Virus record (IMG/VR): IMGVR_UViG_3300017772_000031
Span: 1 to 40,631 of that record
Origin: a virus
DNA length: 40,631 nucleotides
Strand: one strand, 5' to 3'
This document shows positions 1-40,631 of this stretch, piece by piece (within the stretch, counting starts at the first letter, position 1; every line of letters starts with the position of its first letter). The notes under the pieces are model-generated. The model was not told the DNA's origin, made no database searches, and saw only the letters and a list, made by a program, of their open reading frames with translations. Position numbers and translations under genes: made by a program.

Positions 1-1
1 C

Positions 2-172
2 AGCGAGGCTGTCAACGAGGTCGAGCATGACCTCGACCAGCTAATCGGAGAGGGGTGGGCAGACCCGCTCTACGAGGAGGCTGTCCAGGTCTCGCTTGAG
101 AGCGACGTGCTCCCCACGCTGCGAGAGAGCCTCGACACCGTGCTGCGATTCTGCGACGAGTGGAGCAGATGA
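2..172 (+). CDS. 3' part of a small hypothetical protein cut by the window start
   Basis: An open frame runs from base 2 to TGA at 170-172 (56 codons, no start in view here). It encodes an acidic peptide rich in Glu, Asp and Leu that ends RFCDEWSR. Its stop overlaps the next ATG in an ATGA junction, as in the real genes that follow. If the window ends are joined, bases 40621-40631 supply ATG AAC ACA AG in the same frame, giving a complete 60-residue protein. I recognise no family. The reading frame is seen directly; the circular join is inferred. Confidence 0.6.
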   Translation, partial: SEAVNEVEHDLDQLIGEGWADPLYEEAVQVSLESDVLPTLRESLDTVLRFCDEWSR

Positions 173-324
173 GCCAACCCAAACGAAAGCTACTCGTCTC
201 GCTGCGGGCATTGATTGCCCGTGGCGGGGCGGGCGCAGGGACGCACACCAACCGAGAGATGGACCTCCGCAAGGGGAGGTCTCGCAAGACCAAGCACAAA
301 TCAAGGAGACACGACAATGACTAG
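169..324 (+). CDS. small basic hypothetical protein (51 aa)
   Basis: Begins with ATG at 169, overlapping the previous stop (ATGA), and ends at TAG 322-324, 8 bases into the next gene. The product starts MSQPKRKLLVSLRAL and its C-terminal half is rich in Lys and Arg, suggesting nucleic-acid contact at most. Evidence is limited to position and overlap style, both matching the compact operon around it. No family is recognised, and it could be a chance frame between two real genes. Confidence 0.4.
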   Translation: MSQPKRKLLVSLRALIARGGAGAGTHTNREMDLRKGRSRKTKHKSRRHDND

Positions 325-667
325 GGACGACGTGATGACGCTGGAGACGGTCCTGTGCGAGGGCACGATGGACATGGAGACGGTGTCGAGGATGCAGAGC
401 ATGCTCTACGGGATGGACTCCCCCGTGGGCTCCACCCAAATAAGACTGATGAGCCTTCTGACCTGCCTCGATGAGGCTGAGGATGAGTTGACCGAGATGG
501 GTGGCGACCAGGACGATGAGCGAGTCTCGCACCTGTGGCACAGGATGCGGATGGGCATCGACAGTCTCAACGACGCGATGGACCGTGAGAGGTTCCGTGC
601 GACGACGCTCGAGGCTCTTCGGGCAATGAGCAACGGGTTCGGCATGGACCTGGGGGGTGGGGCATGA
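317..667 (+). CDS. hypothetical protein (116 aa)
   Basis: ATG at 317 is preceded by an AAGGAG ribosome-binding site about nine bases upstream, which favours this start over the longer upstream frame. The protein is acidic, methionine-rich and looks helical (heptad-like MTLETV...METVSRMQSML, then LTCLDEAEDELTEMG). No signal peptide or membrane segment is visible. It overlaps the next gene by four bases (ATGA). No family is recognised; an early accessory protein is likely from its place in the early operon. Confidence 0.65.
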   Translation: MTRDDVMTLETVLCEGTMDMETVSRMQSMLYGMDSPVGSTQIRLMSLLTCLDEAEDELTEMGGDQDDERVSHLWHRMRMGIDSLNDAMDRERFRATTLEALRAMSNGFGMDLGGGA

Positions 668-876
668 CGCGGGCAGTGACCGTGACGGTTGGGCGAGAGT
701 CTGAGAAGCCGGGTACAGGCTGGGAGGACATCTCGGTCGAACTCATGGAGGTCGAGGGTCGGTGGACCGTCCGCTACGCCATCGGTGAGGATGGTGACGA
801 CGTGACGCTGAGTGATGACGAGAGGATCGCAGCAATGCTCATGGCATGGGCTGGCAATGACGAGACAGGCCGATAA
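664..876 (+). CDS. hypothetical protein (70 aa)
   Basis: ATG at 664 overlaps the previous stop. The 70-residue acidic product reads as a small beta-rich domain (VTVTVGRES...WEDISVELMEVEGRWTVRYAIGED) followed by a helix (DDERIAAMLMAWAGND). No catalytic motif, signal peptide or membrane segment is visible, and no family is recognised. It is followed by 22 noncoding bases holding the strong ribosome-binding site of the recombinase-like gene. Confidence 0.6.
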   Translation: MTRAVTVTVGRESEKPGTGWEDISVELMEVEGRWTVRYAIGEDGDDVTLSDDERIAAMLMAWAGNDETGR

Positions 877-898
877 CACACAACGGAGGACGAGGACG

Positions 899-1561
899 AT
901 GACGAGGTATGCATACCTGCGGGGAACCGCAGCAGAGAGACACCATCAGAGCAACTGTCTATATGATTCAGACCTTCTCTCTGAGGCGTGGAGAGACAGG
1001 GACCAAACATTCGACGAGTCCATCAGGGACACATCGACCATCGAGACACCGCTGGAGTCTCGAAAGGCAGTGCGGTCCCTGCTGGCTCGAGTCGGAGCGG
1101 GAGACACCGTCTTCCTCGCCTCGCTGTCGGATGTGTCAAACGACCCGCTGCAGGCGTCAGTGTTCGCTGGGATGATCACAAGCTCTGGAGCCTCGCTTCA
1201 GCCCGTAGACGGAGCCCCGGAGGCTGAGGTGAGCATGACCATGTCGGGCATGGTTGCTCTCATGGAGACCCACCGGAGGGTGTCCGAAGCGGTCAGCAAG
1301 GCTCGACGTGTCATCGACAACGACCGAGTGTTCCAGGGGGGCCGAGTGCCCTACGGAAAGCGTCTCGAGAACGGCTTTCTCATGGTCGATGAGCATGAGC
1401 AGGAGGGGATCGCCCACGCTATCTCTCTGCGGTCGAAGGGGATGTCTCTGCACAAGATATGTCGGAGACTGGAGGAGTTGGGGTACAGGCCGAAGAGCGG
1501 ACGCCAGTGGTACGCGACGGGGGTCCGGCGACTCATCAATTCGCACTCGGACAAGCCATGA
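899..1561 (+). CDS. serine-recombinase-like protein with degenerate active site
   Basis: 220 residues. ATG at 899 has GGAGGA eight bases upstream, better supported than the longer frame. The layout follows small serine recombinases: an N-terminal resolvase-like domain (YAYLRGT at 4-10, GDTVFLASLSDVSND at 68-82) and a C-terminal 'recombinase' DNA-binding region (GGRVPYGKRL at 147-156, EEG..I..RSKGMSLHKICRRLEELG, then SGRQW). In active enzymes the first motif is R-x-S with the nucleophilic serine, and the second carries Arg in LDRLxR. Here the serine position is Gly/Thr and the arginines are Asp and Asn. I infer a DNA-binding pseudoenzyme. It is coupled to queC by an ATGA overlap, so it may regulate or target the modification module. 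Confidence 0.75.
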   Translation: MTRYAYLRGTAAERHHQSNCLYDSDLLSEAWRDRDQTFDESIRDTSTIETPLESRKAVRSLLARVGAGDTVFLASLSDVSNDPLQASVFAGMITSSGASLQPVDGAPEAEVSMTMSGMVALMETHRRVSEAVSKARRVIDNDRVFQGGRVPYGKRLENGFLMVDEHEQEGIAHAISLRSKGMSLHKICRRLEELGYRPKSGRQWYATGVRRLINSHSDKP

Positions 1562-2307
1562 GCCCGACTCTTAGCCGAGTTCTTCTTTCTGGGGGCATGG
1601 ACTCCACCCTATGTCTCATCCTTGCTCTGCGAGAAAACCCATCAGTCGAAGCTGTAGCATGCGACTACGGGCAGAGGCATCGACGTGAACTTGGACAGGC
1701 TGTTCTCATCGCACAAACTCTCTCTGTCCCCCTGAGGGTCGTTCGCGGGCTCGATGTCGGAACAGGACGGCTTACAGGGGAGTCGGGCGAACTCGACTCT
1801 GCTGGTGCGGTGCTTCCCGGTCGCAATCGAGCACTTATTCGAGCCGCAGGATGGCTGGACGGAATACGGGCTGACAAGGTCTGGATAGGGGCTACAGCAG
1901 ACGACTATGAGTCGTTCGTTGACTGCAGGCGATCTTATTTTGACGACCTGGAGGCAGAGTGGGCTCCTCGAGAGGGTTCTACGATGACGATTTGCTCTCC
2001 CCTCGTCACAAAGAGGAAGTCACAAATCGTTTCGATGTTTCGCGAGTACGGAGCAAGCAACCTCCTGACCCACACATATTCCTGTTACCGGGGAGAGAAA
2101 CTCGCTTGTGGGCACTGCGGCGCGTGTCGCTCACGGGTACAGGGCTTCTATGAGGCTGGAGTGAGAGACCCAGGGGCCTATTTTGACAGGAGCCTGCTCT
2201 CACCATGCACATCCTGCCTCGTCATGGGCAAACCAACCCCTCCTGGCATTCGATGTCACGGTTCCGGTGGATGGTCTGACTCTCATCGCGAGAGGAAGGA
2301 AGGATGA
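1558..2307 (+). CDS. queC: QueC-like 7-cyano-7-deazaguanine (preQ0) synthase
   Basis: 249 residues, about the usual QueC length. QueC turns 7-carboxy-7-deazaguanine, ammonia and ATP into preQ0. The PP-loop SGGMDS is at 11-16, CDYGQRHRREL at 35-45, PGRNRAL at 87-93 and VDCRRSYFDDL at 121-131. The zinc site is C176, C184, C187 and C190 (SCY...CGHCGAC). An extra C-terminal tail adds CTSC at 217-220 and C233. The start at 1558 is chosen because the PP-loop then begins at residue 11, as usual, and because it forms an ATGA overlap with the gene before; the longer frame would run well inside that gene. It is coupled to dpdA by a second ATGA overlap. The GAT domain needed for archaeosine-type products is absent, so preQ0 is the expected product. 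Confidence 0.93.
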   Translation: MSPTLSRVLLSGGMDSTLCLILALRENPSVEAVACDYGQRHRRELGQAVLIAQTLSVPLRVVRGLDVGTGRLTGESGELDSAGAVLPGRNRALIRAAGWLDGIRADKVWIGATADDYESFVDCRRSYFDDLEAEWAPREGSTMTICSPLVTKRKSQIVSMFREYGASNLLTHTYSCYRGEKLACGHCGACRSRVQGFYEAGVRDPGAYFDRSLLSPCTSCLVMGKPTPPGIRCHGSGGWSDSHRERKEG

Positions 2308-3074
2308 GTCACGCACAGGAGGTTTGCGCTCGTTTGCAGGAAAACATAAACGAATCGCCAGTAACTGACCCAGCAAATGGACGTGAATACCTAGAGTACA
2401 AGCCTTCTTCGTCACCTTTTTTGTCGATGGGTCGGGTTTCTGGGCCGATGATCCCATACGCATCGCGGACACCCATGCGAAATGCGGTCGATGCGATGGT
2501 GAAGTACGGGTGGAGGATGCTAATTGAGCCGTCTCAAGAGGAGTTCTCGTATGGCATGACACCGTCACCACTTCCCTACATGGTAGACAACGGAGCTTGG
2601 GGATGCTCGCAAAGAGGTATTGAGTGGGACGGAAATTTGTTTCTCAACTATTTGGGAAAGTGGGGCAGCTCTGCAGACATGGTTGTCCTACCCGACATTG
2701 TTTCGGGTGGAGGCAAAAGCCTTGAGTTGTCTGTCCGTTGGATAGACGTGGTGCAAGCCTTTGGGTCGCCAATTCTCCTGGCAGTCCAAGATGGAATGAG
2801 TGAAGAGGATGTTCGGCCCATCCTGTTACGGCACAATGTTGGGCTTTTTGTGGGCGGTTCCACCGAGTGGAAGTTGAAGACCCTTCCCCTGTGGGGTCGG
2901 ATCGCTAGGGAGGTCGGCTGCTGGGCGCACGCTGCAAGAGTGAACACGGCAAAAAGGGTGAAAGCCTGCCAGTTGGCCGGGATGAACTCTTTCGACGGAA
3001 CCACTGTGACCAAATGGCCCTCTACTATTCGACTTGTTGACAACGCGAGGAGACAAACATGTCTATTCCGATGA
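2304..3074 (+). CDS. dpdA: DpdA-type DNA 7-deazaguanine transglycosylase
   Basis: 256 residues, a TGT-fold paralogue that swaps guanine in DNA for preQ0 or a derivative. Visible signatures are DNGAWG at 95-100 and LPDIV at 129-133 (candidate catalytic aspartates), VQDG at 161-164, VGGSTEWKLKTL at 183-194, HAARVNTAKRVKAC at 209-222 and NSFDGT at 228-233. The pattern VGGSTEWK followed by H..RVN...R and FDGT is typical of the phage DpdA group rather than tRNA-acting TGT, which is longer and has a different zinc site. ATG at 2304 overlaps the queC stop and follows GGAAGGA. With QueC next door, the likely modification is dPreQ0; this is inferred. Confidence 0.9.
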   Translation: MSHAQEVCARLQENINESPVTDPANGREYLEYKPSSSPFLSMGRVSGPMIPYASRTPMRNAVDAMVKYGWRMLIEPSQEEFSYGMTPSPLPYMVDNGAWGCSQRGIEWDGNLFLNYLGKWGSSADMVVLPDIVSGGGKSLELSVRWIDVVQAFGSPILLAVQDGMSEEDVRPILLRHNVGLFVGGSTEWKLKTLPLWGRIAREVGCWAHAARVNTAKRVKACQLAGMNSFDGTTVTKWPSTIRLVDNARRQTCLFR

Positions 3075-3268
3075 CCGACCACACACGATGCGTCGTCCGC
3101 TCCACCCTCTATGGTCCGTGGGCCTCCTGCGGTCCTGAGTGCCTTGTGGTGGAGCGTTACGCTTGGGGCATGGGGGCACGGGGAGAGCCGCTCCCTGATG
3201 AGGTGCCAGACCTCGCACGGGAGGCGTGGCAGCATGGCGAGCGAGTGACCAGGAGGGCGAGGCGATGA
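3059..3268 (+). CDS. hypothetical protein (69 aa)
   Basis: ATG at 3059 lies inside the end of dpdA (16-base overlap) after a purine-rich GAGGAG stretch. The stop forms an ATGA overlap with the next gene. The product has two close cysteines (WASCGPECLVVERYAWGMG) and a basic C-terminus (ERVTRRARR). No membrane segment or known motif is visible and no family is recognised. Gene spacing on both sides is the main support. Confidence 0.6.
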   Translation: MSIPMTDHTRCVVRSTLYGPWASCGPECLVVERYAWGMGARGEPLPDEVPDLAREAWQHGERVTRRARR

Positions 3269-3600
3269 TGAAAAGACTGTTGATAGCTCTGGCTCTCTCC
3301 TTTCCCGTGTCGCTCGCTGCTGGGGATGACCCCGAAGTCCTGATGAAGTCTCGATGCGTGGGGGAGTGGGAGGATGACTTCCGCATGCAGAGGTACTGCG
3401 TGGACAAGGAAATTGTCTCCATGACCCAGGTCGGGGAGTACATCGAGAAGCATGGTCTGCATGAGAAGGATTCGTCCGACCCCCGATATCGGATCTTGTC
3501 GAAGTGCCTCTACGAGTGGACCGACGAGCACGGCCCATATTGGAGGATGGTCCACTATTGCAATCGGAAGCAGGCCGAAGCCTGGGAGTCGATGAGATGA
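3265..3600 (+). CDS. secreted or periplasmic protein with duplicated Cys-x3-W motif
   Basis: 111 residues. ATGATG at 3265 overlaps the previous stop. Residues 1-19 form a classical signal peptide (MMKRLLIALALSFPVSLAA). The mature part holds two copies of one pattern: C31..EW.DDFRMQRYC45 and C81LYEWTDEHG..RMVHYC99, each followed by a polar stretch. The paired cysteines suggest one disulfide per repeat in an oxidising compartment. It is the last gene before the structured gap at 3601-3808. An envelope role such as superinfection exclusion is possible but not shown by the sequence. Confidence 0.75.
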   Translation: MMKRLLIALALSFPVSLAAGDDPEVLMKSRCVGEWEDDFRMQRYCVDKEIVSMTQVGEYIEKHGLHEKDSSDPRYRILSKCLYEWTDEHGPYWRMVHYCNRKQAEAWESMR

Positions 3601-3662
3601 TCTCGCCCACACCCTTGACCCCGAACCCAGCGGACCACTAGAGTCCATCCACGTCCTTCGGG

Positions 3663-3793
3663 TCGCTCTTGGTTGAGCCTCCCCCCTTGTCTCCGGTTGA
3701 TCCCCGGAAAACGGCAAGGGGGGGGGTAGAGAGCGCCCGAACCACCAAGAGCGAGAAGACAAGTCTCTCGCCGCACCCTGCCGTCTCACGGCA
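3663..3793 (+). other. nested stem-loop region upstream of the replication initiator
   Basis: This 208-base gap (3601-3808) has no gene but strong pairing. The outer arms TCGCTCTTGGT (3663-3673) and ACCAAGAGCGA (3744-3754) match perfectly. A middle C-rich arm at 3678-3691 pairs with the G-run arm at 3713-3726 over 14 base pairs, two of them G-T. TCCGG (3692-3696) pairs with CCGGA (3704-3708) around a 7-base loop. Two more hairpins follow: GCGAGA/TCTCGC (3751-3756 with 3766-3771), which competes with the outer arm, and TGCCGT-CTC-ACGGCA (3779-3793), ending just before the ribosome-binding site GGAGAG. No U-tract follows, so this is not a simple terminator. It could be a structured 5' leader, an antisense-controlled switch or a DNA replication element. 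Confidence 0.6.
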
Positions 3794-3808
3794 TCGGAGA
3801 GTTGCGCC

Positions 3809-4765
3809 ATGAAGAGATACAACCGCGTGTCGAGGAACCTGTGGACTGACGGTGGGCTCATCAAGCTCGAGCCGATCAAGTTCTCCGTCCCATGCCTATA
3901 CCTCTACCTGATGACCTGCGACAGACCCACCCGCATCGCAGGTCTGTTGCGGGGAGCGGGGACCATCTGCGACGACACCGGATGGTCACCGGATAGGGTA
4001 TCCGATGGGGTATCCGCACTGCATAAGGAGGGGCTACTCACAGTGAGTTCGAGACCCTCCTACATCCTCGTCCATGAGGCTCTCGCGTTCGACCTACCCG
4101 ACCCAGGGAAGGCGACTGTCGGAGCACTCAGAGACCTCGACTCTCTGCCCGACTGCGAGCCTGTTCGACTCGCCAGGTCCATCATCGAGGACAGGGGACT
4201 GGATAGGGTATCCGATAGGGTATCCGATAGGGTATCGGTATCCCATGCGAAGCCAGGAACAGGAACAGGAACAGGAACAGATACCCCCAAGCCCCCTACG
4301 GGGGTGAGTCGGTCTGTTGATTCTGTCTGGACATCCTGGCGGTCTCATCACCCGACAGCCCGAAAGGCTCCGACAGCAGGCCAGCGAAGGACGATCACCT
4401 CGAGGCTCAAAGACTACAGCGAACAGGAGATCGCTCAATACTTCTTGTGGCTCAAGGAGTCTGACCATGAGCGAGCGAAATACTGTCGAGAGCATGGGCA
4501 TGACGGCTTCAGTTCTGTCATGCGCCCCAGCAACATCGACGAGCGGATGGACTGGGTCCACCAGTGGACAATCGAGGACAGCCCAGAGAACTCATATCCC
4601 ATGTGGCTCGAGCATGACGTGATGAGCAAAGTCCGTCGTGAGCGACTGGGCAGTGATGACCTGACGGATGACCTGCTGATGGCCCATCCGAGAGCATCTG
4701 AGACCACGCCGCTTCAGCGTGAACGGGTCATGGAGATGTGCCGAACACAGATGGGTTGGTCGTGA
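3809..4765 (+). CDS. replication initiator, O-like, with winged-helix N-terminus
   Basis: 318 residues. ATG at 3809 follows GGAGAG. The N-terminus (about 20-90) matches phage replication winged-helix domains: IKFSVPCLYLYLMT, a glycine-rich RIAGLLRGAG, then VSDGVSALHKEGLLTV. A low-complexity linker (DRVS repeats, then GTGTGTGT, about 130-160) is encoded by DNA repeats that look like origin iterons. The C-terminal region (VWTSWRSHHPTAR, RRTITSRLKDYSEQEIAQYFLWLKES, about 170-225) resembles the DNA-binding or helicase-recruiting part of such proteins. The DnaB-like gene follows immediately, as with lambda O/P and P22 18/12. It should bind the origin and load the helicase. Confidence 0.75.
   Translation: MKRYNRVSRNLWTDGGLIKLEPIKFSVPCLYLYLMTCDRPTRIAGLLRGAGTICDDTGWSPDRVSDGVSALHKEGLLTVSSRPSYILVHEALAFDLPDPGKATVGALRDLDSLPDCEPVRLARSIIEDRGLDRVSDRVSDRVSVSHAKPGTGTGTGTDTPKPPTGVSRSVDSVWTSWRSHHPTARKAPTAGQRRTITSRLKDYSEQEIAQYFLWLKESDHERAKYCREHGHDGFSSVMRPSNIDERMDWVHQWTIEDSPENSYPMWLEHDVMSKVRRERLGSDDLTDDLLMAHPRASETTPLQRERVMEMCRTQMGWS
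3991..4015 (+). repeat. iteron pair 1 inside the initiator gene
   Basis: GATAGGGTATCC at 3992-4003 is followed directly by GATGGGGTATCC at 4004-4015, a 12-base direct repeat with one mismatch. With the preceding G, the first copy reads GGATA-GGG-TATCC, a perfect dyad. Both repeat and dyad match the second cluster at 4201-4243. Confidence 0.7.
4201..4243 (+). repeat. iteron cluster 2, candidate replication origin
   Basis: Three tandem 12-base units occupy 4202-4213, 4214-4225 and 4226-4237 (GATAGGGTATCC twice, then GATAGGGTATCG), followed by a partial GGTATCCC. Each unit has GGATA/TATCC dyad symmetry. They encode the DRVS repeats of the initiator linker. Origins nested in the initiator gene are known for lambdoid O genes. 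Binding by the encoded protein is inferred. Confidence 0.65.
4255..4304 (+). repeat. AGGAAC x4 tract and C5/G5 hairpin beside the iterons
   Basis: Four perfect AGGAAC hexamers fill 4255-4278 (encoding Gly-Thr repeats). They are followed by CCCCC-TAC-GGGGG at 4292-4304, a tight hairpin. The tract is purine-rich on the plus strand, so it could serve as the unwinding or strand-bias element next to the iterons. Confidence 0.6.
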
Positions 4766-6066
4766 GCCTCCCAGACCGAGTGCCCCACGACATTGGTGCG
4801 GAGAGGGCTCTACTCGGAGCCGTTCTCCTCTCCCCTGGTGTGTTCCACCTGGCTCAGGGAGAGGGATTCACGAAGGAGCACTTCTTCAAGGAGGCAAGCC
4901 GACTCATCTGGGATGTTTTCGCGTACTGCGACCGAGCAGGGTCTCTCGATGTGACCCTCGTTGCGGGAAGGTTGGAGGAGCTGGGCAAACTCGAACGCAT
5001 TGGTGGGGTCGTTTGGCTGCTCGACCTGTCTGCGTCGTGCCCCAGCATCCACAACGCAAAGCGATACGTCGAGACCATCATGCGTCATGCCCGGTCGAGA
5101 GCCCTGCTTCTCGCTGGGGAGCAGATGCGACACGCCATCCTGTCTGGTGAGAACCCAGACGACGCTGCAGCAATCGTGAACAGGACGTTCGCTGAGGGGC
5201 AGGTTGACCCAGCCTCTGCAGAGTGGGCGTCCGACACCATCGACAGGCTTAGGCCACAGTTCAGTGCTCGACAGAAGCCGGATAGGTTCTTGCCCCTGGA
5301 GAGCAGGGTTCTGAGAGGGATGGTCGGAGGGATCGCGAAAGGACACATCCTCCTTGTCGTTGGCCTACCCGGCATGGGCAAAAGCGTATTCATGGATGGA
5401 CTGTGCGTTGACCTCGCTGTCGAGCATGGCATCTCTGGATGTCTGTTCAGCCTCGAGATGAGCCTCGACGCGGTCACCGAGAGGAGAATCAGCAGGCTCG
5501 CGTCCGTCAACTACGGAGCGGTGCAGGACCGACAGGTCACTGACGAGGAGCTATTTCACGTAGACCAGGCGATGAACCGTCTGGACACCGCCCCCCTGAT
5601 GACCGACGAAAAGCTCTATACGGTCCACCAACTGTGCGCTCGCGCTCGAGCAGGCCAGAGAGAGCATGAGTGGCAATGGATAGGCATCGACCATCTGCAT
5701 GAGTTTCGGAAGACGGACCCGAACATGAGTCCGCAGGCGCACATGCAGGAGGTTGCTGACGCCCTGCATGAGTTGTGCAAGACCACGAAGCTTGCAGTCA
5801 TTCTCGGAGCGCAGATGAACTCGGAGGCTCGTAACCGAAAAGACCCCCGACCTCGTCTCGGAGACGTGCGGTACGGCAAGCCGGTGGAAGAGAAGGCTGC
5901 AGTCATGCTGGGCATCTACAGGGACCACGTCATCAACCCCTCGCCTGAGCGTAGGTTTGAGGTGGACATCAACGCTGCGAAGAGCCGGTTTGGAACCGGT
6001 GGAAGATGCATCATGCGCTGGGAGGGTCACTTCCAGCGCGTAGTCGATACGCCCATAGGGTTTTAA
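4738..6066 (+). CDS. dnaB: DnaB-like replicative DNA helicase
   Basis: Up to 442 residues; hexameric 5'-3' helicase expected at the fork. The N-terminal domain has the DnaB pattern HDIGAERALLGAVLLSP (17-33). Walker A is GLPGMGKS at 209-216, followed by CLFSLEMS (235-242) and a Walker B-like WIGIDHLHEF. A sensor segment LAVILGAQMNSEARNRKD and GDVRYGKPVEEKAAVML follow. Two GTG starts are possible, 4738 and 4762. The second gives a GTGA overlap with the initiator; neither has a strong ribosome-binding site, which suggests translational coupling. Its place right after the initiator supports a paired replisome role using host polymerase. Confidence 0.93.
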   Translation: MPNTDGLVVSLPDRVPHDIGAERALLGAVLLSPGVFHLAQGEGFTKEHFFKEASRLIWDVFAYCDRAGSLDVTLVAGRLEELGKLERIGGVVWLLDLSASCPSIHNAKRYVETIMRHARSRALLLAGEQMRHAILSGENPDDAAAIVNRTFAEGQVDPASAEWASDTIDRLRPQFSARQKPDRFLPLESRVLRGMVGGIAKGHILLVVGLPGMGKSVFMDGLCVDLAVEHGISGCLFSLEMSLDAVTERRISRLASVNYGAVQDRQVTDEELFHVDQAMNRLDTAPLMTDEKLYTVHQLCARARAGQREHEWQWIGIDHLHEFRKTDPNMSPQAHMQEVADALHELCKTTKLAVILGAQMNSEARNRKDPRPRLGDVRYGKPVEEKAAVMLGIYRDHVINPSPERRFEVDINAAKSRFGTGGRCIMRWEGHFQRVVDTPIGF

Positions 6067-6077
6067 GGAGGAGAGAC

Positions 6078-6263
6078 ATGGACAACGAAGCACCAGTCAG
6101 AGAGATGCACCCCGAAGACTTCTGGAAACCATCACCGGACTGGGTCATCTGCCCTGTCTGCAAGGGTCATGGGGTGGGGGAGAGAGACCTGTGCGACCTG
6201 TGCGAGGGGGCGAGGGTAATATCTGTAGAGACATTTAACACATGGAGTTCCCTGGAGGAGTGA
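6078..6263 (+). CDS. small zinc-ribbon protein (DnaJ-like CxxCxGxG)
   Basis: 61 residues, ATG at 6078 with AAGGAGGAG just upstream. It carries CPVCKGHGVGERDLCDLCEGAR, written here in parts as CPVCKGHG and CDLCEG, a single zinc knuckle like those in the DnaJ cysteine-rich domain. The rest is short and acidic. It overlaps the next gene by four bases if that starts at GTG 6260. Its role is unknown; it is one of several mini zinc proteins in this phage. Confidence 0.7.
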   Translation: MDNEAPVREMHPEDFWKPSPDWVICPVCKGHGVGERDLCDLCEGARVISVETFNTWSSLEE

Positions 6264-6493
6264 GCGACAAGCCGAAGATCGTCCTAACGCTGGACCGTTG
6301 CGAGCACTACGCAGTGGCTGAGTGGTTGGAGAAGTTCTGCAGAGCATGCGGACAGCCGTATGTCGCGCTCGATGCGTGTTCTGTGTGTGGTGAGCCTGCG
6401 CTCCAGGCCCAGGTGCAGGAGAGCAGCCAGAGGGACGAGGCTTCGGAGTTCGCTATCGCGCTCGACGTGATGGGGGTGGGGGGAGACGGGTGA
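6260..6493 (+). CDS. small zinc-ribbon protein
   Basis: 77 residues from GTG 6260 (GTGA overlap with the previous stop), or 83 residues from ATG 6242. The GGAGGA directly before 6260 is too close to be ideal, so the start is uncertain. Motifs CRACG and CSVCG about 16 residues apart form a likely zinc ribbon after a short region (KIVLTLDRCEHYAVAEWLEKF). The acidic C-terminus overlaps the next gene (GTGA). Function is unknown. Confidence 0.6.
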   Translation: MSDKPKIVLTLDRCEHYAVAEWLEKFCRACGQPYVALDACSVCGEPALQAQVQESSQRDEASEFAIALDVMGVGGDG

Positions 6494-6723
6494 CCGATAG
6501 CGAGAAAGAGATGTACGAGGAGAGGGTCTCAATAATCTTGGAGTCTGGTGACATCCCCGCGTGGAAAGCGAGGATGACCGCAAGCAAGCAACTAGAGAGA
6601 TGGAGGAGTCATGCAGGACACATACGGAGGGATGCCACCGTTCGTTTCGGGGTCGGAGACATCGGAGAAGGCGTCCTCGAGGGCGAAAGAGTCAGCGTCC
6701 TCGATGAGGGAGCGAGTACATAG
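6490..6723 (+). CDS. hypothetical protein (77 aa) overlapping the next gene
   Basis: GTG at 6490 overlaps the previous stop. The first ~45 residues (TDSEKEMYEERVSIILESGDIPAWKARMTASKQLERW) look like a genuine helical small protein. The 3' part overlaps the winged-helix gene at 6611 by 113 bases in another frame and is less protein-like. It may truly overlap, or a short version may be real. No family is recognised. Confidence 0.5.
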   Translation: MTDSEKEMYEERVSIILESGDIPAWKARMTASKQLERWRSHAGHIRRDATVRFGVGDIGEGVLEGERVSVLDEGAST

Positions 6724-6955
6724 GCACCTAGAGGCATGCGGTGAGCGCGGCTCAACCGACGACGAGTTGGAGGTGGCACTGGGACTACTACATCAGACTG
6801 CGTCAGCCCGAAGACGTGAGCTTGAACTCATGGGCAGGGTAGTGAAGACCGACAGGGAGAGGAAGACTAGGACAGGATCTGCAGCAGCGGTCTATTGCTC
6901 AGAGGACTCCGCTCGACCCCATCGGCAAACCACCATGTTCGCCATCCATGATTGA
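6611..6955 (+). CDS. winged-helix DNA-binding protein
   Basis: 114 residues, ATG at 6611 right after GGAGGAG (6602-6608). After a polar N-terminus, residues ~33-95 form a typical phage winged helix: MRERVHRHLEACGERGSTDDELEVALGL (in parts), SARRRELELMGRVVKT and RKTRTGSAAAVY, matching the pattern in which a promoter-reading helix is followed by a basic wing. This suggests a small transcription regulator or accessory replication protein. It overlaps the previous gene by 113 bases and the next by eight. Confidence 0.65.
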   Translation: MQDTYGGMPPFVSGSETSEKASSRAKESASSMRERVHRHLEACGERGSTDDELEVALGLLHQTASARRRELELMGRVVKTDRERKTRTGSAAAVYCSEDSARPHRQTTMFAIHD

Positions 6956-7160
6956 GCGCGTCACATCCTCAGACGGTCTAACCTGGACCGTGCAAAAGAA
7001 CGACAGGGAGGCGTGGGCTATCTGCTCGTCTGGCTCCGTCTGGGTATCGAGGTCCAAACTCGAGGTCTACGCGCTTCCGTATGTACCCCTCGAGGTGATG
7101 GAGAAGCTCTGGTCCATGCGACCTCCTCAGAGGCGCTCAACGACTGCGGAGCCCTCGTAG
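6948..7160 (+). CDS. hypothetical protein (70 aa)
   Basis: ATG at 6948 overlaps the previous stop by eight bases. The sequence (SSDGLTWTVQKNDREAWAI, VWVSRSKLEVYALPYVPLEVMEKLW) looks like a compact beta-rich domain with several tryptophans. Its 3' end overlaps the convergent methyltransferase gene by 34 bases, which marks the edge of the inverted cassette. No family is recognised. Confidence 0.55.
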   Translation: MIERVTSSDGLTWTVQKNDREAWAICSSGSVWVSRSKLEVYALPYVPLEVMEKLWSMRPPQRRSTTAEPS

Positions 7161-7735
7161 CCTTTCTCCCAGGTAAACCATCCGTAGTCGTACAGGTCAG
7201 TGCCCCCACCAGGGGCGAACGATGGTCGTCTACCCAGAACCCCTAGGTGGAAGAATCCAAAGTCCTGATACAGGTTCACCCGTCTCTTGCCCGCAAGAAA
7301 CGCGAGCCTCAGGAGGAAGGTCACCCTCGAGCCGTCACCTATGTGGCGCATAGAGTGCTCGACGAACTCCTGAGCCAGAGAAAACGGAGGGTTCCCTACA
7401 ACCCATACGTCTCCCCGGTCTTTGAGCCCTGCTGGCTGAAGCTCGAGGAAGTCGTACTCAATAACGTGTACTCCGTCCTGGCGGCTCATCTCTGAGCGTT
7501 CGGCGTCCAGTTCTACGCCGAGTATCGACGCAGTGGGGAAGTACGCATCTCGCCAACCCTTAAGCCTTGAAAGCATTGCCCCGTCCCCGCAAGAGGGCTC
7601 GATGATCGTCGAGCACTCCTCCGGCGCGGCCTCGCTACGGAGCATGTCTCGCACACACCATTCCGGTGTCGCGTAAAAATCATCTGGGTGCCTACCCCTG
7701 ACCGGTGCCCTCTGTGGGAAGAGAGAGAACGTCAT
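7127..7735 (-). CDS. orphan DNA methyltransferase (N6-adenine type)
   Basis: 202 residues. FYATPEW (20-26), the SAM-binding motif I EPSCGDGAM (46-54), acidic VELD (74-77) after it and catalytic NPPF (115-118) follow in the order of amino-methyltransferases that modify adenine (NPPF/Y). No restriction enzyme lies beside it, so it is probably protective or regulatory. It starts at ATG 7735, sharing four bases with the XRE gene, so the two are translated together. It runs against all neighbouring early genes, as an inserted cassette would. Target sequence is unknown. Confidence 0.85.
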   Translation of the reverse strand: MTFSLFPQRAPVRGRHPDDFYATPEWCVRDMLRSEAAPEECSTIIEPSCGDGAMLSRLKGWRDAYFPTASILGVELDAERSEMSRQDGVHVIEYDFLELQPAGLKDRGDVWVVGNPPFSLAQEFVEHSMRHIGDGSRVTFLLRLAFLAGKRRVNLYQDFGFFHLGVLGRRPSFAPGGGTDLYDYGWFTWEKGYEGSAVVERL

Positions 7736-7968
7736 CGCGTAACGTCCACCCGCTCTTCGCTGGTGAGCCAGTCCGACACTCGTACAGTGTCGTTTGTGAG
7801 ATGAGCAATCCTATGCTGGTGAGCCATCCCAGGCCGAACGGTTCCGTCGAACCATTTGTACAGGGTCTGCCTCGTCACAGAGCATAGCCCTGCGAACTCA
7901 ACTCGACTCATGTCCTGTCTGTCCAGCCACGCTTTAAGGGTGCGGGAGCCCTCTGTGATGTTCGCCAT
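7732..7968 (-). CDS. XRE-like helix-turn-helix regulator
   Basis: 78 residues from ATG 7968 (a GTG at 8013 would give 93). Residues 19-46 make a Cro/CI-type helix-turn-helix: DMSRVEFAGLCSVTRQTLYKWFDG, in the usual order with a Gln-Thr-Leu recognition helix. It is small, with no dimerisation or peptidase domain, more like an R-M controller or Cro than a full CI. It overlaps the methyltransferase start (ATGA). The intergenic space upstream carries a sigma70-like promoter and repeated ACATACGT, its likely operator. Confidence 0.8.
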   Translation of the reverse strand: MANITEGSRTLKAWLDRQDMSRVEFAGLCSVTRQTLYKWFDGTVRPGMAHQHRIAHLTNDTVRVSDWLTSEERVDVTR

Positions 7969-7986
7969 TTCGTAGAGATACACTCC

Positions 7987-8021
7987 ACATACGTGTCGCC
8001 CCACGGTTGACACACATACGT
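7987..8021. promoter_or_regulatory. candidate XRE operator: two ACATACGT repeats
   Basis: ACATACGT occurs at 7987-7994 and 8014-8021, 27 bases apart and on the same face of the helix to within a fraction of a turn. The pair flanks the -35 box of the rightward promoter and lies upstream of the leftward XRE gene, so one protein could control both directions. Binding is inferred. Confidence 0.45.
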
Positions 8022-8035
8022 CGTCAGCCTACTCT
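8007..8035 (+). promoter_or_regulatory. sigma70-like promoter for the 8061-11319 genes
   Basis: TTGACA (8007-8012) is a perfect -35. A 17-base spacer leads to TACTCT (8030-8035), a weaker -10. Transcription would start near 8042, just before the AGGAG site (8048-8052) of the 8061 gene. It overlaps the ACATACGT repeats. Confidence 0.5.
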
Positions 8036-8060
8036 CCGCTGCAACCCAGGAGCACAACCA

Positions 8061-8255
8061 ATGAGTCGAAGAAAAGCCAGGTGGTCTGTAGCCACGTATC
8101 CCGTCAGCGAAGGTGGGAGGTCTTTATGGGTCTCTCTCATCAAGAAAAACGGCAAGCTCATCCAGAAGATTGAGCAGGCCGGGAGGCGTAACGACGCGCA
8201 GCAAGCGGCCATCGAGGCCCTCGAGTTGCTCCGTAACGAGGAACCGTCTCTGTGA
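8061..8255 (+). CDS. hypothetical protein (64 aa)
   Basis: ATG at 8061 has AGGAG eight bases upstream, so the longer frame from 8007 is rejected. The protein is basic (MSRRKARWSVATYPV, LWVSLIKKNGKLIQKIEQAGRR) with a helical C-terminus. It looks like a small nucleic-acid-associated protein. It is the first gene after the promoter at 8007 and couples to the next by GTGA. No family is recognised. Confidence 0.6.
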   Translation: MSRRKARWSVATYPVSEGGRSLWVSLIKKNGKLIQKIEQAGRRNDAQQAAIEALELLRNEEPSL

Positions 8256-8476
8256 ACTGCGTCGAATGCGGCTCTGTTCTGCCCTCCTCTCGCTCCCGGT
8301 GCGACAGGTGCTCGCCTAGCGTCCGTCTCGTATCGGGGTCGAGCAAAGACGACTCTCTTTGCGGATGTGCGCTCGACATGCGCTCCGCACACAAGGCGAC
8401 ATGCCGTCGCCACCCGTCCTATGTGGACTCTCTGTTGAGCCCAGCGAACGGACCACACTGCGTGGGTGCTTTGTGA
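8252..8476 (+). CDS. cysteine-rich zinc-ribbon protein (74 aa)
   Basis: GTG at 8252 overlaps the previous stop. Motifs CVECG (3-7) and CDRC (17-20) make a first zinc ribbon. A second group, CGCALDM...C (37-51), and a histidine-rich tail follow. The first ribbon resembles the N-terminal zinc-ribbon module of many small bacterial proteins. Function is unknown; it may bind DNA, RNA or a host protein. Confidence 0.6.
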   Translation: MNCVECGSVLPSSRSRCDRCSPSVRLVSGSSKDDSLCGCALDMRSAHKATCRRHPSYVDSLLSPANGPHCVGAL

Positions 8477-8565
8477 TGTCTGGTCGAGACAGAGCCGGGT
8501 TCGCCATTTGTTTATTTGTTCTCTGCCTCATCGCAGGGATAGCCATTGGAGTTTTCTGTGACTGA
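8476..8565 (+). CDS. 29-residue single-pass membrane peptide
   Basis: ATG at 8476 shares one base with the previous stop (a GTG at 8473 would give GTGA). The peptide MSGRDRAGFAICLFVLCLIA (first 20) continues in a hydrophobic run to GIAIGVF and ends CD, so one membrane span with a positive N-terminal flank. It ends 8 bases inside the Erf gene. Small membrane peptides in early operons can act on host physiology; no evidence shows that here. Confidence 0.45.
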   Translation: MSGRDRAGFAICLFVLCLIAGIAIGVFCD

Positions 8566-9208
8566 GCCAACACATTCAAACGTTTACGAAGCCATCAACG
8601 CTGTCATGCAGGAGATTGGATACGTGTACAAAGGGACAAAGGTAGACATGGGAGGTGGTCGTTCGTACCGGGCTGCCGGTGAAGCGGAGCTTCTCAAGGC
8701 TCTTCGACCCGTCATGGTCCGTCATGGGCTCATGATCATGCCCATCCAGCATGAGGTGGAGTCCGTACATGAGATGCTCCCGAAGTTCTACCGTGGGAAG
8801 AAGGAGGGGGAAAGGTCCAGCCGAACCGTAAGGGTGAACAGCATCTACCGGATAGCCCATGTGTCTGGTCAATACGTGGATGTCGCCGCAGCAGGCGAAG
8901 GCCAGGACACCGGGGACAAGGCGACAGCAAAAGCCCTGACCATCGCCATGAAGTACGCGCTTCGACAATCGTTCGCGCTCGAGACGGGCGACGACCCAGA
9001 CCGAGAGCGTCCTGAGAGGCAGTTCGAGCGGACAGACACGCCCGATGTGATTGACGCAGCGAAGAAGCGGCTCCGTCAGGTGTTTGGAGACAACCACGCT
9101 GAGGCTGGCCTCATGGTGAAAGAGTCCACCGGACTCGACCTCAGAGAAGCACTCAGTGACTCGTCAGCATGTCAGGTAATCATCAACGCATTGTCCAAGG
9201 AGTCCTGA
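8558..9208 (+). CDS. erf: Erf-family single-strand annealing protein
   Basis: 216 residues. GTG at 8558 has GGAG six bases upstream. The N-terminal domain follows Erf/Rad52-like phage annealases: YEAINAVMQEIGYVYKGTKVDM, written in parts, then AGEAELLKALRPVMVRHGLMIMP, EVESV, and the conserved GEGQDTGDKATAKALTIAMKYAL split around residues 112-135, ending QSFALETGDDPD. It would anneal complementary single strands during recombination and genome circularisation. The C-terminal part is variable, as usual. It sits with Gp157, SSB and RuvC-like genes. Confidence 0.88.
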   Translation: MTEPTHSNVYEAINAVMQEIGYVYKGTKVDMGGGRSYRAAGEAELLKALRPVMVRHGLMIMPIQHEVESVHEMLPKFYRGKKEGERSSRTVRVNSIYRIAHVSGQYVDVAAAGEGQDTGDKATAKALTIAMKYALRQSFALETGDDPDRERPERQFERTDTPDVIDAAKKRLRQVFGDNHAEAGLMVKESTGLDLREALSDSSACQVIINALSKES

Positions 9209-9774
9209 TGGAACAGCACATTCTCACAACGGGTCAAATCGAAGACACCCTGGCCTACATCTCAGACATGGAGGCTCGCATCGACCTCCTCACCGACAGC
9301 GGGGAAGACATCGTCAGAGCTGACGCAATGATTGAGAAGATTAACGAGGCACTCGACGCCCTGGGCGAGAGTATCCCAGCGAAGGCAGAGAGGGCGGTGT
9401 ACGTCCTGAGGGCGGCAGAGTCGAGGCGAGACCTCATGAAGAAGCATGAGGCGCAACTCAAGGCTAGGAGGGCTCGAGAGGAGAAGACCATCGAACGGGT
9501 GCGAGACGTTGTCGCAAGGCTTCTCGCCGCACACAAGGAGCACCAGTCAGACCCTAAAGCAAAGCTTCAGACTGACGCCGGAACTATTTACGAAACCTCA
9601 AGAACCAGGGTCGTTGGGCCGGACGACATCTCGCTCTGGCCTGCTGAGTTCTTGAGGCACAGGGGACCAGAGCCAGACAAGTCGAAGGTGGACAGAGAAC
9701 TTCGCAACACGCCAGAAGATGAACTACCGCAAGGGTTTACGCGGGTAACTAAAAGGAGCACTTCAGTAAGATGA
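9208..9774 (+). CDS. siphovirus Gp157-like protein
   Basis: 188 residues; ATG at 9208 follows AAGGAG. Long helical coiled coil (about 10-115: ISDMEARIDLLTDSGEDI, MIEKINEALDALGES, KKHEAQLKARRAREEKTIERV) followed by the family's C-terminal beta region: KLQTDAGTIYETSRTRVVGPDDI, split here, WPAEFLRHRGPEPDKSK and the TSVR end. This is the Gp157 pattern, often next to annealases or SSB in phages and linked to recombination or phage resistance. Exact activity is not known. It overlaps ssb by ATGA. Confidence 0.8.
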   Translation: MEQHILTTGQIEDTLAYISDMEARIDLLTDSGEDIVRADAMIEKINEALDALGESIPAKAERAVYVLRAAESRRDLMKKHEAQLKARRAREEKTIERVRDVVARLLAAHKEHQSDPKAKLQTDAGTIYETSRTRVVGPDDISLWPAEFLRHRGPEPDKSKVDRELRNTPEDELPQGFTRVTKRSTSVR

Positions 9775-10169
9775 GCAATGCAATCACAATTACAGGGAAT
9801 CTCGGAGCCGACCCAGAGCGAAGGGTTGAAGGTGCAGGGCCAGTAGAGGTGCGTGTCGCAGACTCAACCGGATATGGAGAGCGCAAGCGAACCACCTGGT
9901 GGAAGTGCGCTGTCTGGGGGAAGACCGGAGAGTACGCACTCGCAAACCTCAAGAAGGGAGACATGGTTGTCGTCTATGGAGAAGCACACCTTGATGAGTG
10001 GGAGGGCAGAGATGGCTCGAAACGATCAACCCTTGTCCTCAACTGCAACCGACTCGACGGACCATTCCAGCGCAGGAAACTCGGAGACCGTGACGACAGC
10101 CCCCAGCGAAGGGATGCTCCGACTTCACGACCTGCGCCAAAGAAGTACGAAGACGACATCCCGTTCTAG
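9771..10169 (+). CDS. ssb: single-stranded DNA-binding protein
   Basis: 132 residues. OB-fold SSB signature: ITITGNLGADPERR near the start, TTWWKCAVWGKTGEYALANLKKGDMVVVYGE in parts, and RSTLVLNCNRLD. The linker is proline-rich and the C-terminus is EDDIPF, the acidic tail through which SSBs bind partner proteins. ATG 9771 overlaps the previous stop. It coats single strands for the DnaB fork and Erf annealing. Confidence 0.95.
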   Translation: MSNAITITGNLGADPERRVEGAGPVEVRVADSTGYGERKRTTWWKCAVWGKTGEYALANLKKGDMVVVYGEAHLDEWEGRDGSKRSTLVLNCNRLDGPFQRRKLGDRDDSPQRRDAPTSRPAPKKYEDDIPF

Positions 10170-10200
10170 TCGCCGCATACCTCGAGGCGAGAAGGTGGCG

Positions 10201-10422
10201 ATGGTCATACAGGAACTTATGTGCCGGAAGATGACCTGGAGGGAAGGGGTAGACCTCATCGGAGTGAAGTCGAGGAGCATCTGGTATCGCATCCTCGATG
10301 ACATCGAGATAGCCGACTGGAAGGTGAAGAGGTACTACAAGCCGGGGTCTCTGCAGGCCCACTACTACATCGACCTCAACGACCCATGGAAGGGAAGAAG
10401 CCTTGAAGATACTAGCTATTGA
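10201..10422 (+). CDS. hypothetical protein (73 aa)
   Basis: ATG at 10201, with a weak GAAGGTGG upstream; the longer frame inside ssb is rejected because it would read the ssb coding sequence out of frame. The product is basic with a possible helix-turn-helix (KMTWREGVDLIGVKSRSIWYRI) and aromatic-rich tail (WKVKRYYKPGSLQAHYYIDL). It overlaps the RuvC-like start by 20 bases. A small DNA-binding role is possible. Confidence 0.55.
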   Translation: MVIQELMCRKMTWREGVDLIGVKSRSIWYRILDDIEIADWKVKRYYKPGSLQAHYYIDLNDPWKGRSLEDTSY

Positions 10423-10885
10423 CCCAGGGACAACGTCGTCTGGCGTTGTCGTCTACTGCTCTCAAGAAAAGCTTGTACTTTGGGCTACTAAGGCACTGGA
10501 AAACAACGAGGTTCTTGCTCTCATCTCTAAGGTGGGGGCAGGAGCCTCGACTCCTTTGCCGAGCATAGTTGCCGTCGAGCGGGTCCAGGCTCAAGGTCTG
10601 GCAGGCAACGATGTCCTCAAGACCGCAGAGTGGTCAGCTCGCTTTGTTCAGTCGGCAGAGTGTTTCGGACTGCCCTTTCGGTGGCACTACCGAAGAGAGG
10701 TGTGCAGGCACCTCGACGTTTCGGGCGGGAAGAAGGACAGCCAGGTTCGAGAGAGATGTATCGAGCTTCATGGCGGGGACAAGAGCGCAGCAGTCGGCGT
10801 GAAGAAAAGCCCTGGCCCTCTCTACGGGGTCAGCGGTCATGCTTGGCAGGCTCTTGGTCTCGCTCTTCTCGTCGCTGACATATAG
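10403..10885 (+). CDS. RuvC-like Holliday-junction nuclease
   Basis: 160 residues from TTG 10403, after a purine-rich AAGGGAAGAAG. The RNase H-like fold shows AIDPGTTSSGVV (Asp7), VAVERVQAQG (Glu59) and a last helix GHAWQALGLAL. In RuvC the last helix normally carries two acidic residues (DxxDA); here His146 and Gln149 stand there, so metal binding may differ. It should resolve branched recombination intermediates before packaging. Confidence is high for the fold and moderate for activity. Confidence 0.8.
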   Translation: MKILAIDPGTTSSGVVVYCSQEKLVLWATKALENNEVLALISKVGAGASTPLPSIVAVERVQAQGLAGNDVLKTAEWSARFVQSAECFGLPFRWHYRREVCRHLDVSGGKKDSQVRERCIELHGGDKSAAVGVKKSPGPLYGVSGHAWQALGLALLVADI

Positions 10886-10923
10886 GCCCTGACAAGACAG
10901 GGACTGTTCAGAAAGGTTTTCTA

Positions 10924-11124
10924 GTGCCGATTTACGAGTACAAGTGTGGGTCTTGTGGCTCCGAGTTCAGCGTACTGTCCAGCCACAGGGACAGCGAGCG
11001 GCCTCGACCGTGCCCTGACCCTGTATGCCTTGAGCCCGAAGCGAGGAAGGTCGTGTCTCGCACGTCATTCGCGCTGAAGGGCGACGGGTGGGCAAGTGAC
11101 GGCTACTCAGGAAAGGGTAAGTAG
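10924..11124 (+). CDS. FmdB-family zinc-ribbon protein
   Basis: 66 residues, GTG at 10924. The start PIYEYKCGSCGSEFSVL is the FmdB signature with CxxC, followed by a second pair in RPCPDPVC. The C-terminus KVVSRTSFALKGDGWASDGYS is also typical of this phage/bacterial group. FmdB proteins were linked to regulation, but the phage forms are uncharacterised. A second FmdB-type domain occurs at 35612. Confidence 0.8.
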   Translation: MPIYEYKCGSCGSEFSVLSSHRDSERPRPCPDPVCLEPEARKVVSRTSFALKGDGWASDGYSGKGK

Positions 11125-11319
11125 TTGTACATCATCATGCAGGCGAGCCACGCGCATCGGTCACCTCGAGCTTCGGAGGCTTACCGGGGGCCGACAACAA
11201 AGGTCGCTGGGGTCAAGCCGGGTGTCGTCTACTCGTCGCTTAAGGATGCAGAGAAAGACTCTGCAAGGCTTAGGGAGTGGAACCCCGCAGGGTTTGTTGT
11301 CGTCAGCATAAGCAAGTGA
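11125..11319 (+). CDS. hypothetical protein (64 aa)
   Basis: TTG at 11125 has AAAGGG seven bases upstream. The internal ATG at 11137 lies too far from it. The sequence has a basic N-terminus and a compact C-terminal half (GVVYSSLKDAEKDSARLREW NPAGFVVVSISK in parts). This helix-strand end is reminiscent of small phage DUF proteins, but I recognise no family. Confidence 0.5.
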   Translation: MYIIMQASHAHRSPRASEAYRGPTTKVAGVKPGVVYSSLKDAEKDSARLREWNPAGFVVVSISK

Positions 11320-11338
11320 CTAGCGCCCATGCTTTGGG

Positions 11339-11347
11339 TGCTACGAT
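11339..11347 (+). promoter_or_regulatory. possible extended -10 promoter for lysis genes
   Basis: TG-C-TACGAT at 11339-11347 resembles an extended -10 and ends seven bases before ATG 11355. No matching -35 is seen. If used, the transcript would start at or very near the ATG, a leaderless message, which would fit the lack of a ribosome-binding site there. Confidence 0.3.
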
Positions 11348-11354
11348 TCCGCGC

Positions 11355-11597
11355 ATGAAAAACCAGAGCAAGCGTAAGGACACAGAGAGCGAGAGCAGAA
11401 GGCTCAAGTTCCTGGGGATGGTCATTGCTACTGGCGGGTGCATCCTAGCAAAGGAGTCGTCCGTAGAGATTGCTGGGATCTACGCAGCCTTCGTTGGAGG
11501 AGCGGCGTATCTAGGGTCAAAGTACATCTCTGGCGAGACATCCCGACCCAGCGGCTCTGTCGAGGCAATACCACCCATCTCGGAAGTGTCTGACTAA
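11355..11597 (+). CDS. small two-span membrane protein, holin candidate
   Basis: 80 residues, ATG at 11355. Two hydrophobic stretches, LKFLGMVIATGGCILA (about 18-33) and VEIAGIYAAFVGGAAYLGS (about 37-55), are separated by a short charged turn, with a basic N-terminus and a polar tail. This is the size and shape of a class II holin. It opens the cluster leading to the M15 endolysin. Similar topology could also serve an antiholin; function is inferred from place and shape. Confidence 0.55.
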   Translation: MKNQSKRKDTESESRRLKFLGMVIATGGCILAKESSVEIAGIYAAFVGGAAYLGSKYISGETSRPSGSVEAIPPISEVSD

Positions 11598-11956
11598 TGT
11601 CTCGAGTTCCCTGGTGGGGGTGGGCTCTCGTCGCAATAGCCGCATCCCTTGTTCTCCTTGTAGCTATCCCACCCCTGCGGGATTTGGTTGTCGCAGGTAT
11701 TGCTTCCGTATTCGCTACAGCAGTCGGAGTAAAGGCGACGAAAAGGGTGGCGCAGGCGCGAAGCAATGCGACCGAAGCAGTCGAAGAGCACCGCGATAAC
11801 GTTGCAGCCGAGTCGCTACAGGTCGAGAAGAGGGAAGAAAGGGACGAGGACCGCGCCTCAGAGGCTCTAGCCGAAGATACGAAGGCTGACGAGCCCGAAG
11901 GAGACGAAGAGCGCAGAGAGCGAATGGAGGCTCTCGGAAAGGATCCTCTGTCGTGA
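11597..11956 (+). CDS. membrane-anchored coiled-coil protein (spanin or holin-like)
   Basis: 119 residues; TAATG overlap with the previous gene. N-terminal hydrophobic span(s) WWGWALVAIAASLVLLVAIP (about 6-25) and LVVAGIASVFATAVGV (about 30-45) precede a long charged coiled coil (AQARSNATEAVEEHRD, VEKREERDEDRASEALAED). An N-terminal membrane anchor plus periplasmic coiled coil is the layout of inner-membrane spanins. No lipobox-bearing partner is evident, so the call is tentative. Confidence 0.5.
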   Translation: MSRVPWWGWALVAIAASLVLLVAIPPLRDLVVAGIASVFATAVGVKATKRVAQARSNATEAVEEHRDNVAAESLQVEKREERDEDRASEALAEDTKADEPEGDEERRERMEALGKDPLS

Positions 11957-40620: not shown

Positions 40621-40631
40621 ATGAACACAAG
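40621..40631 (+). CDS. possible 5' end of the gene that opens the window
   Basis: ATG AAC ACA AG at the extreme end continues in frame into base 1 (AGC, GAG, GCT...) of the window if the ends are joined. The result would be a 60-residue protein whose stop overlaps the next ATG. Supports circular closure; the join itself is not seen directly. Confidence 0.5.

Follow-up and report, generated by a model that had tools for sequence, protein, structure and literature searches.

What does a virus do with a preQ0 synthase and a guanine transglycosylase when no other preQ0-pathway gene is found in its sequenced DNA? The question is raised by the left end of a 40,631-base virus record (IMG/VR IMGVR_UViG_3300017772_000031), analysed here over its whole length and referred to as the window, which also encodes DnaB, ERF, SSB, endolysin, capsid, portal and terminase. 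At this end four genes are chained by ATGA overlaps: a recombinase-like gene, queC, a gene for a DpdA-like protein and, starting at 3071, a small gene that is conserved. The features are as follows.

899 to 1561, plus strand: serine-recombinase-like gene, 220 amino acids, with only the C-terminal Recombinase domain recognisable; left border of the cassette.
1558 to 2307, plus strand: queC, 7-cyano-7-deazaguanine (preQ0) synthase family, 249 amino acids.
1588 to 1605, plus strand: PP-loop SGGMDS, QueC residues 11 to 16, read from the sequence and from invariant columns of an alignment of 11 proteins.
2083 to 2127, plus strand: zinc site CYRGEKLACGHCGAC, QueC residues 176 to 190, read from the sequence as C-x7-CxxCxxC; Cys invariant in the same 11 proteins.
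2304 to 3074, plus strand: short DpdA-family guanine transglycosylase, 256 amino acids from the ATG at 2304.
2586 to 2588, plus strand: D95 of VDNGAW, equivalent to the general base of TGT (TDSGGFQ); invariant in 39 homologues and aligned to DSGA of canonical DpdA.
2694 to 2696, plus strand: D131 of LPDIV, equivalent to the base-recognition Asp of TGT (FDECTP); invariant, register from the E. coli Tgt alignment.
2994 to 2996, plus strand: D231 of SFDGT, equivalent to the TGT nucleophile (MFDCV); invariant, register from the Tgt and canonical DpdA alignments.
3071 to 3268, plus strand: downstream gene, its start overlapping the dpdA stop by ATGA; right border of the cassette.
1562 to 3087, no strand assigned: queC and dpdA cassette, replaced by 10 bp in a sibling contig (blastn and sequence comparison).

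The product of queC matches Pfam PF06508 with an E value of 2.7e-37 (128.7 bits, against a curated cut-off of 22), phrog_1550 with 1.9e-46, and QueC structures in the PDB (2pg3 with 4e-18, and also 3bl5). It keeps 18 of the 18 invariant columns in an alignment of 11 QueC proteins, the SGGMDS and C-x7-CxxCxxC residues of the original prediction being present. The canonical QueC signature, as defined in 2026, consists of SGGxDS, YxQxHxxE, the RN of VPxRN, a Lys, YPDC and the Tyr of the zinc site (PMC13329287). The window protein has SGGMDS, YGQRHRRE, LPGRN, K154 and CY-x6-CxxCxxC, with FVDC as the YPDC substrate motif; E. coli QueC carrying Y131F retains partial activity (PMC13329287). The score against the NCBIfam equivalog TIGR00364 was 116.6 bits, below the cut-off of 150.3, and we therefore file the protein as a QueC-family member with the canonical signature rather than as a certified equivalog. 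In Pfam its 249 residues match nothing but QueC, and a second (GAT) domain is absent. A Cys-containing tail of about 45 residues is absent from its relatives, and structure prediction without an alignment reached a pLDDT of only 35.

Two defence proteins with a QueC fold were considered as alternative identities. Cap9 is distinguished by CE at the zinc site, a length of about 185 residues and a neighbouring CD-NTase gene; the window protein has CY, 249 residues, and recombinase-like and DpdA neighbours, and its match to Cap9 (9nto_B, E 1e-12) is weaker than that to QueC in the PDB. QatC is about 400 residues long, with N- and C-terminal extensions, a C(x)19CGxCxxRR motif and qatA/qatD neighbours, whereas the window protein has 249 residues, C-x7-CGxCxxC and no adjoining qatA or qatD. 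These differences in residues and length from Cap9, and in length and motif from QatC, therefore indicate that the protein is QueC-like and not a defence paralogue.

The second gene overlaps the first by ATGA at 2304-2307, as had been predicted, with AGGAAGGAAGG just before. Residues 1-48 are absent from most homologues, and the model has low confidence there; the homologues mostly start at the equivalent of M49 (ATG 2448), where translation may begin, although the ribosome-binding site is better at the 2304 start. No sequence match to the protein was found in Pfam, NCBIfam, PADLOC or the PDB. It was assigned to phrog_15826, a short family of about 205 residues annotated "unknown function", of which, to our knowledge, no member has been tested biochemically. 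Over 39 homologues 13 residues are invariant, both catalytic Asp among them. The VGGSTEWK and H..RVN...R residues singled out in the original prediction are present, and are not there by chance, since G184, G185, K190, H209 and R212 are invariant in the 39 relatives and T187 and N214 are conserved in at least 90% of them.

The AlphaFold2 model of this protein is a TIM barrel with a pLDDT of 87 (core above 95). The best 50 matches in a structure comparison were all tRNA-guanine transglycosylases, Z. mobilis TGT (Z 17) among them, with Z 16.5-17.0 and an rmsd of about 3 Å over 216 aligned residues. The structure prediction suggested earlier as a check gave the TGT fold expected of a DpdA. Comparison of the family profile with individual phage DpdAs (hhalign) gave E values of 1.7e-8 for Pantoea MED16 and 1.3e-7 for Mycobacterium Rinkes, and 7e-8 for a profile of five canonical DpdAs, in which D95, D131, G184-G185, H209 and D231 align; CAjan alone (0.004) and 9g alone (0.0015) matched weakly. 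E. coli Tgt gave 0.037, an insignificant alignment which sets its FDECTP, VGG and MFDCV on D131, G184-G185 and D231. The queuine tRNA-ribosyltransferase family phrog_887 was also matched by 10 of the 39 homologues. A TGT fold combined with profile kinship to phage DpdA and not to Tgt indicates a divergent, short DpdA; by sequence, the alignment proposed as a test thus comes down on the phage side. The protein belongs to a short uncharacterised family, apart from the tested DpdAs of about 300 residues. Further DpdA subfamilies are reportedly named in a 2023 paper.

No QueD (PF01242), FolE (PF01227), radical SAM/QueE (PF04055) or YhhQ transporter (PF02592) was found in the window by searches that detected positive controls in named control genomes. 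Comparison of 42 further window ORFs with Pfam revealed no methylase and no pathway gene. Searches of the window for tRNAs and Rfam families gave no match, so it holds no known preQ1 riboswitch. The claim that FolE, QueD, QueE and a GAT domain are lacking therefore holds for the window, but the accompanying suggestion that the window may be the whole genome is doubtful. A sibling contig, IMGVR_UViG_3300006793_000154, is 96-99% identical to the window, and carries 6,375 bases between the equivalents of window position 40631 and position 1. The record is therefore probably short of the whole genome by about 6.4 kb, and other genes could lie there; the phage of the window may instead have truly lost these bases, though this is not our main reading. 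We had considered a complete, circularly permuted genome, because the two ends looked as though they were linked through an ATG in frame, and rejected it as the main reading on account of these sibling bases. Nine ORFs scanned in the sibling's 6,375-base stretch included a C5-cytosine DNA methylase and a GP88-family protein and no preQ0-pathway gene, and the sibling contig is without QueD. The methylase (503 residues, positions 2878-4389 of locus L163 in the sibling, minus strand; PF00145, E 1.4e-45) is a possible alternative anti-restriction gene.

Among deposited phages, window positions 1-12000 had no nucleotide relative, and relatives of the terminase and capsid, from phages of Roseobacter, Bradyrhizobium and Myxococcus, are only about 25% identical. 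In the structural half, the portal gene (33636-35609) lies on the plus strand amid head genes on the minus strand, an unusual split of this module, and an ORF contains four tandem imperfect repeats of 48 nt (23223-23461).

The same sibling defines the borders of the locus. The contig is partial (30,589 bases, leaving window positions 3888 to about 18,800 uncovered), and in it the recombinase-like gene (99% identical) is followed directly by the orthologue of the downstream gene, with both flanking genes intact and ATGA coupling preserved in the empty as in the cassette-bearing version. The rest of the sibling contig yielded neither QueC nor short DpdA. As the pair is missing as a unit from a near-identical relative, queC and dpdA behave as a cassette gained or lost together, and these comparisons of sequence suggest that they travel as a unit. 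The G+C contents of the two genes (0.57 and 0.53) are lower than those of the flanks (0.61 and 0.60). In a related contig (L029, otherwise close to L012) dpdA is broken by a frameshift or stop at 9971-10318 beside an intact queC, which makes it either a pseudogene or a sequencing error.

The module had originally been drawn from 899, but 899-1561 is a separate gene, whose stop overlaps the queC start at ATGA 1558-1561. Its product matches PF07508 (E 7.4e-6) and the integrase family phrog_95 (E 2e-11). We rejected it as part of the module, as it is kept in the cassette-less sibling and no other short DpdA has a homologue of it as neighbour. No resolvase catalytic motif can be made out in its N-terminal half (YLRGTA in place of the usual R-x-S, and no match to PF00239), and the protein is perhaps a DNA-binding remnant. 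In sum, the genes, their overlap, their residues and the lone pathway pair stand as first described, the start at 899 does not, and the whole genome is doubtful.

To see the pair in context, relatives of the short DpdA were collected from IMG/VR; scans with single proteins gave no match, and an alignment query was required, which found 376. Among the IMG/VR loci examined, QueC alone adjoins short DpdA in the window, in the L011/L012/L029 group, and at L014 and L028. QueD alone takes this place at seven loci (L013, L018, L019, L038, L046, L053 and L073) and QueE alone at L035. Pairs of enzymes also occur: QueE with QueC (L023, L056, L068), QueE with QueD (L024, L065), and QueD with QueC (L082). 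These partners lie on the same strand and overlap in most cases, and FolE was found beside none of the loci examined. Contigs G003, G005, G006 and G021 are larger, and the rest of each record did not yield the absent pathway genes. The presence of partners switches at least 13 times on a tree of 52 members of the family; this count is approximate, as the tree was built quickly and support for many of its branchings is weak. Of 53 short DpdAs in genomes of bacteria (Caballeronia, Paraburkholderia, Pseudomonas, Sphingomonas and others) nearly all stand alone: one has QueE as neighbour, and none has QueC or QueD.

Phages Sonali, SHIN8 and R29Z carry short DpdA alongside other 7-deazaguanine pathway genes, and the short family may therefore have a distinct job. 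Sonali and SHIN8 additionally have a DpdA of the canonical type; in R29Z, the pathway genes annotated in the vicinity are just QueD and FolE. The short and canonical genes are at 5878-6495 and 8865-9755 in Sonali (L006), and at 6262-6591 and 3899-4819 in SHIN8 (L090), where the match to short DpdA extends over more than one annotated ORF. In Erythrobacter phage R6L, Rhodococcus phage ReqiPine5 and one IMG/VR contig (L002 10463-11506, L005 4598-5515 and L021 11034-12038), a gene annotated as PAPS reductase, or its homologue, is found near short DpdA, making PAPS reductase a possible further partner.

We think it probable that the locus is a cassette for 7-deazaguanine modification of DNA which is complemented by the host. 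Judged from their sequences, both QueC and DpdA look catalytically intact, and for a QueC without QueD, QueE and FolE the supply of precursor by the host is the natural reading. Host enzymes would make 7-carboxy-7-deazaguanine (CDG) for queuosine, and the phage QueC would convert CDG, with ATP and ammonia, via ADG to preQ0. The short DpdA would then exchange guanine in DNA by the double displacement of TGT, with D231 as nucleophile and D95 as general acid/base, so that preQ0 (or ADG) is placed in DNA after replication, and restriction enzymes which recognise guanine would be hindered. A limiting last step, or diversion of preQ0 into queuosine by the host, may be why the phage carries QueC. The modification would probably serve as camouflage against bacterial restriction enzymes; the final base, the extent of modification and the protection from restriction are inferred.

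Other phages advise caution on these last points. MED16 and 7-11 carry DpdA only, and their DNA is modified, presumably from host precursors (PMC8306585, PMC6884629). The main base is dADG, in trace amounts (0.13% of G in MED16 and 0.02% of G in 7-11), and MED16 DNA is cut by most enzymes tested (PMC8306585). Neither the product nor a block to restriction can therefore be assumed, and of the original interpretation the intact-looking enzymes and, as the natural reading, the host supply stand, with a whole-genome premise that is doubtful and a DpdA that belongs to a short uncharacterised family.

The strongest alternative, though an unlikely one, accepts that DNA is modified and holds that the product is not dPreQ0, ADG or CDG being inserted or preQ0 converted later, and that the modification is in trace amounts or site-specific rather than a bulk protection from restriction. 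The DpdA-only phages just described are in its favour, as is the presence in Sonali and SHIN8 of both canonical and short DpdA, which hints at a second specificity; but the operon has a QueC of its own, which suggests that preQ0 is the base meant for insertion, and the repeated linkage to QueC, QueD or QueE suggests a greater need for precursor than trace use would create.

It is improbable that the pair is directed at tRNA or the host, with QueC raising preQ0 and queuosine and the TGT-like protein acting on tRNA or other RNA to favour phage translation. The nearest solved structures are all tRNA-guanine transglycosylases, and boosting of Q was proposed by Hutinet et al. for phages with pathway genes and no DpdA. 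However, the sequence kinship is with phage DpdA and not Tgt; with 375 residues E. coli Tgt is longer than the protein by over 100, and the protein stops where Tgt has its C-terminal zinc-binding part. We likewise give little credence to a role for the pair in deazaguanine immunity, by making, removing or sequestering protein marks in the manner of Cap9/Cap10 and Qat, or in trace, site-specific signalling on DNA, in place of shielding. That the genes are a non-functional passenger, recently acquired and making no modification, seems very unlikely: Mycobacterium phage Orion has a DpdA and yet no modification, in a host without precursor, and the near-identical sibling without the cassette and the interrupted dpdA of the related contig fit such a history, but both window genes are intact, all invariant residues are kept, and there is translational coupling on both sides. 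Hardly any weight attaches to the remaining idea, a counter-defence or protein-directed pair which mimics or disarms type IV CBASS Cap9/Cap10 and its N-terminal deazaguanylation of CD-NTase, for although Cap9 matches the window QueC and a QueC-like protein is also paired with a TGT-family protein in type IV CBASS (PMC11996544), QueC outscores Cap9, the zinc site and length differ, no CD-NTase gene was recognised in the window, and the catalytic Asp residues of DpdA are all kept.

If host-complemented modification is the true function, phages add to the host's queuosine pathway only a step that it lacks or that limits it, and their DNA chemistry would then depend on host metabolism. It would also give phrog_15826 a testable function, and the near-identical sibling lacking both genes provides a natural with/without pair for probing the benefit of modification. 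Phages with DpdA have been described as carrying either the full preQ0 pathway with DpdA or DpdA alone, and single QueC proteins were kept apart, their role being unclear (PMC6884629). The parts of the present locus are thus known; what appears new, with priority not certain, is the pairing of QueC only with short DpdA, the recurrence of interchangeable single enzymes, and the with/without sibling.

Among known systems, type IV CBASS Cap9/Cap10 also pairs a QueC fold with a TGT fold (Cap10), and QatC too has the QueC fold; these proteins act on proteins in bacterial defence, and differ from the window pair in motif, length and context. Members of phrog_15826 in isolated phages (Sonali gp81, Aoka gp40, Ksquared gp54, ReqiPine5 gp03 and Erythrobacter phage R6L gp10) are 26-40% identical to the window protein and share its invariant residues, but occur alone, close to PAPS reductase or next to a complete canonical pathway, and not as a QueC-only pair. 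Pantoea phage MED16 and Salmonella phage 7-11 resemble the window in their presumed dependence on host precursor, and the window protein has a relative in the MED16 DpdA; unlike the window they lack QueC, their DpdA is of another subgroup, and trace dADG, not dPreQ0, was found. In the dPreQ0 systems of Escherichia phage CAjan and Mycobacterium phage Rosebush (FolE-QueD-QueE-QueC-DpdA), the entire preQ0 pathway is present with, in CAjan, a DpdA of about 300 residues, whereas the window has QueC and short DpdA only and a presumed host precursor. In CAjan both dPreQ0 and protection require DpdA, and what these two phages share with the window is QueC together with a transglycosylase of the DpdA/TGT family in which the DxGA, D, GG, H and DS/DG motifs are conserved.
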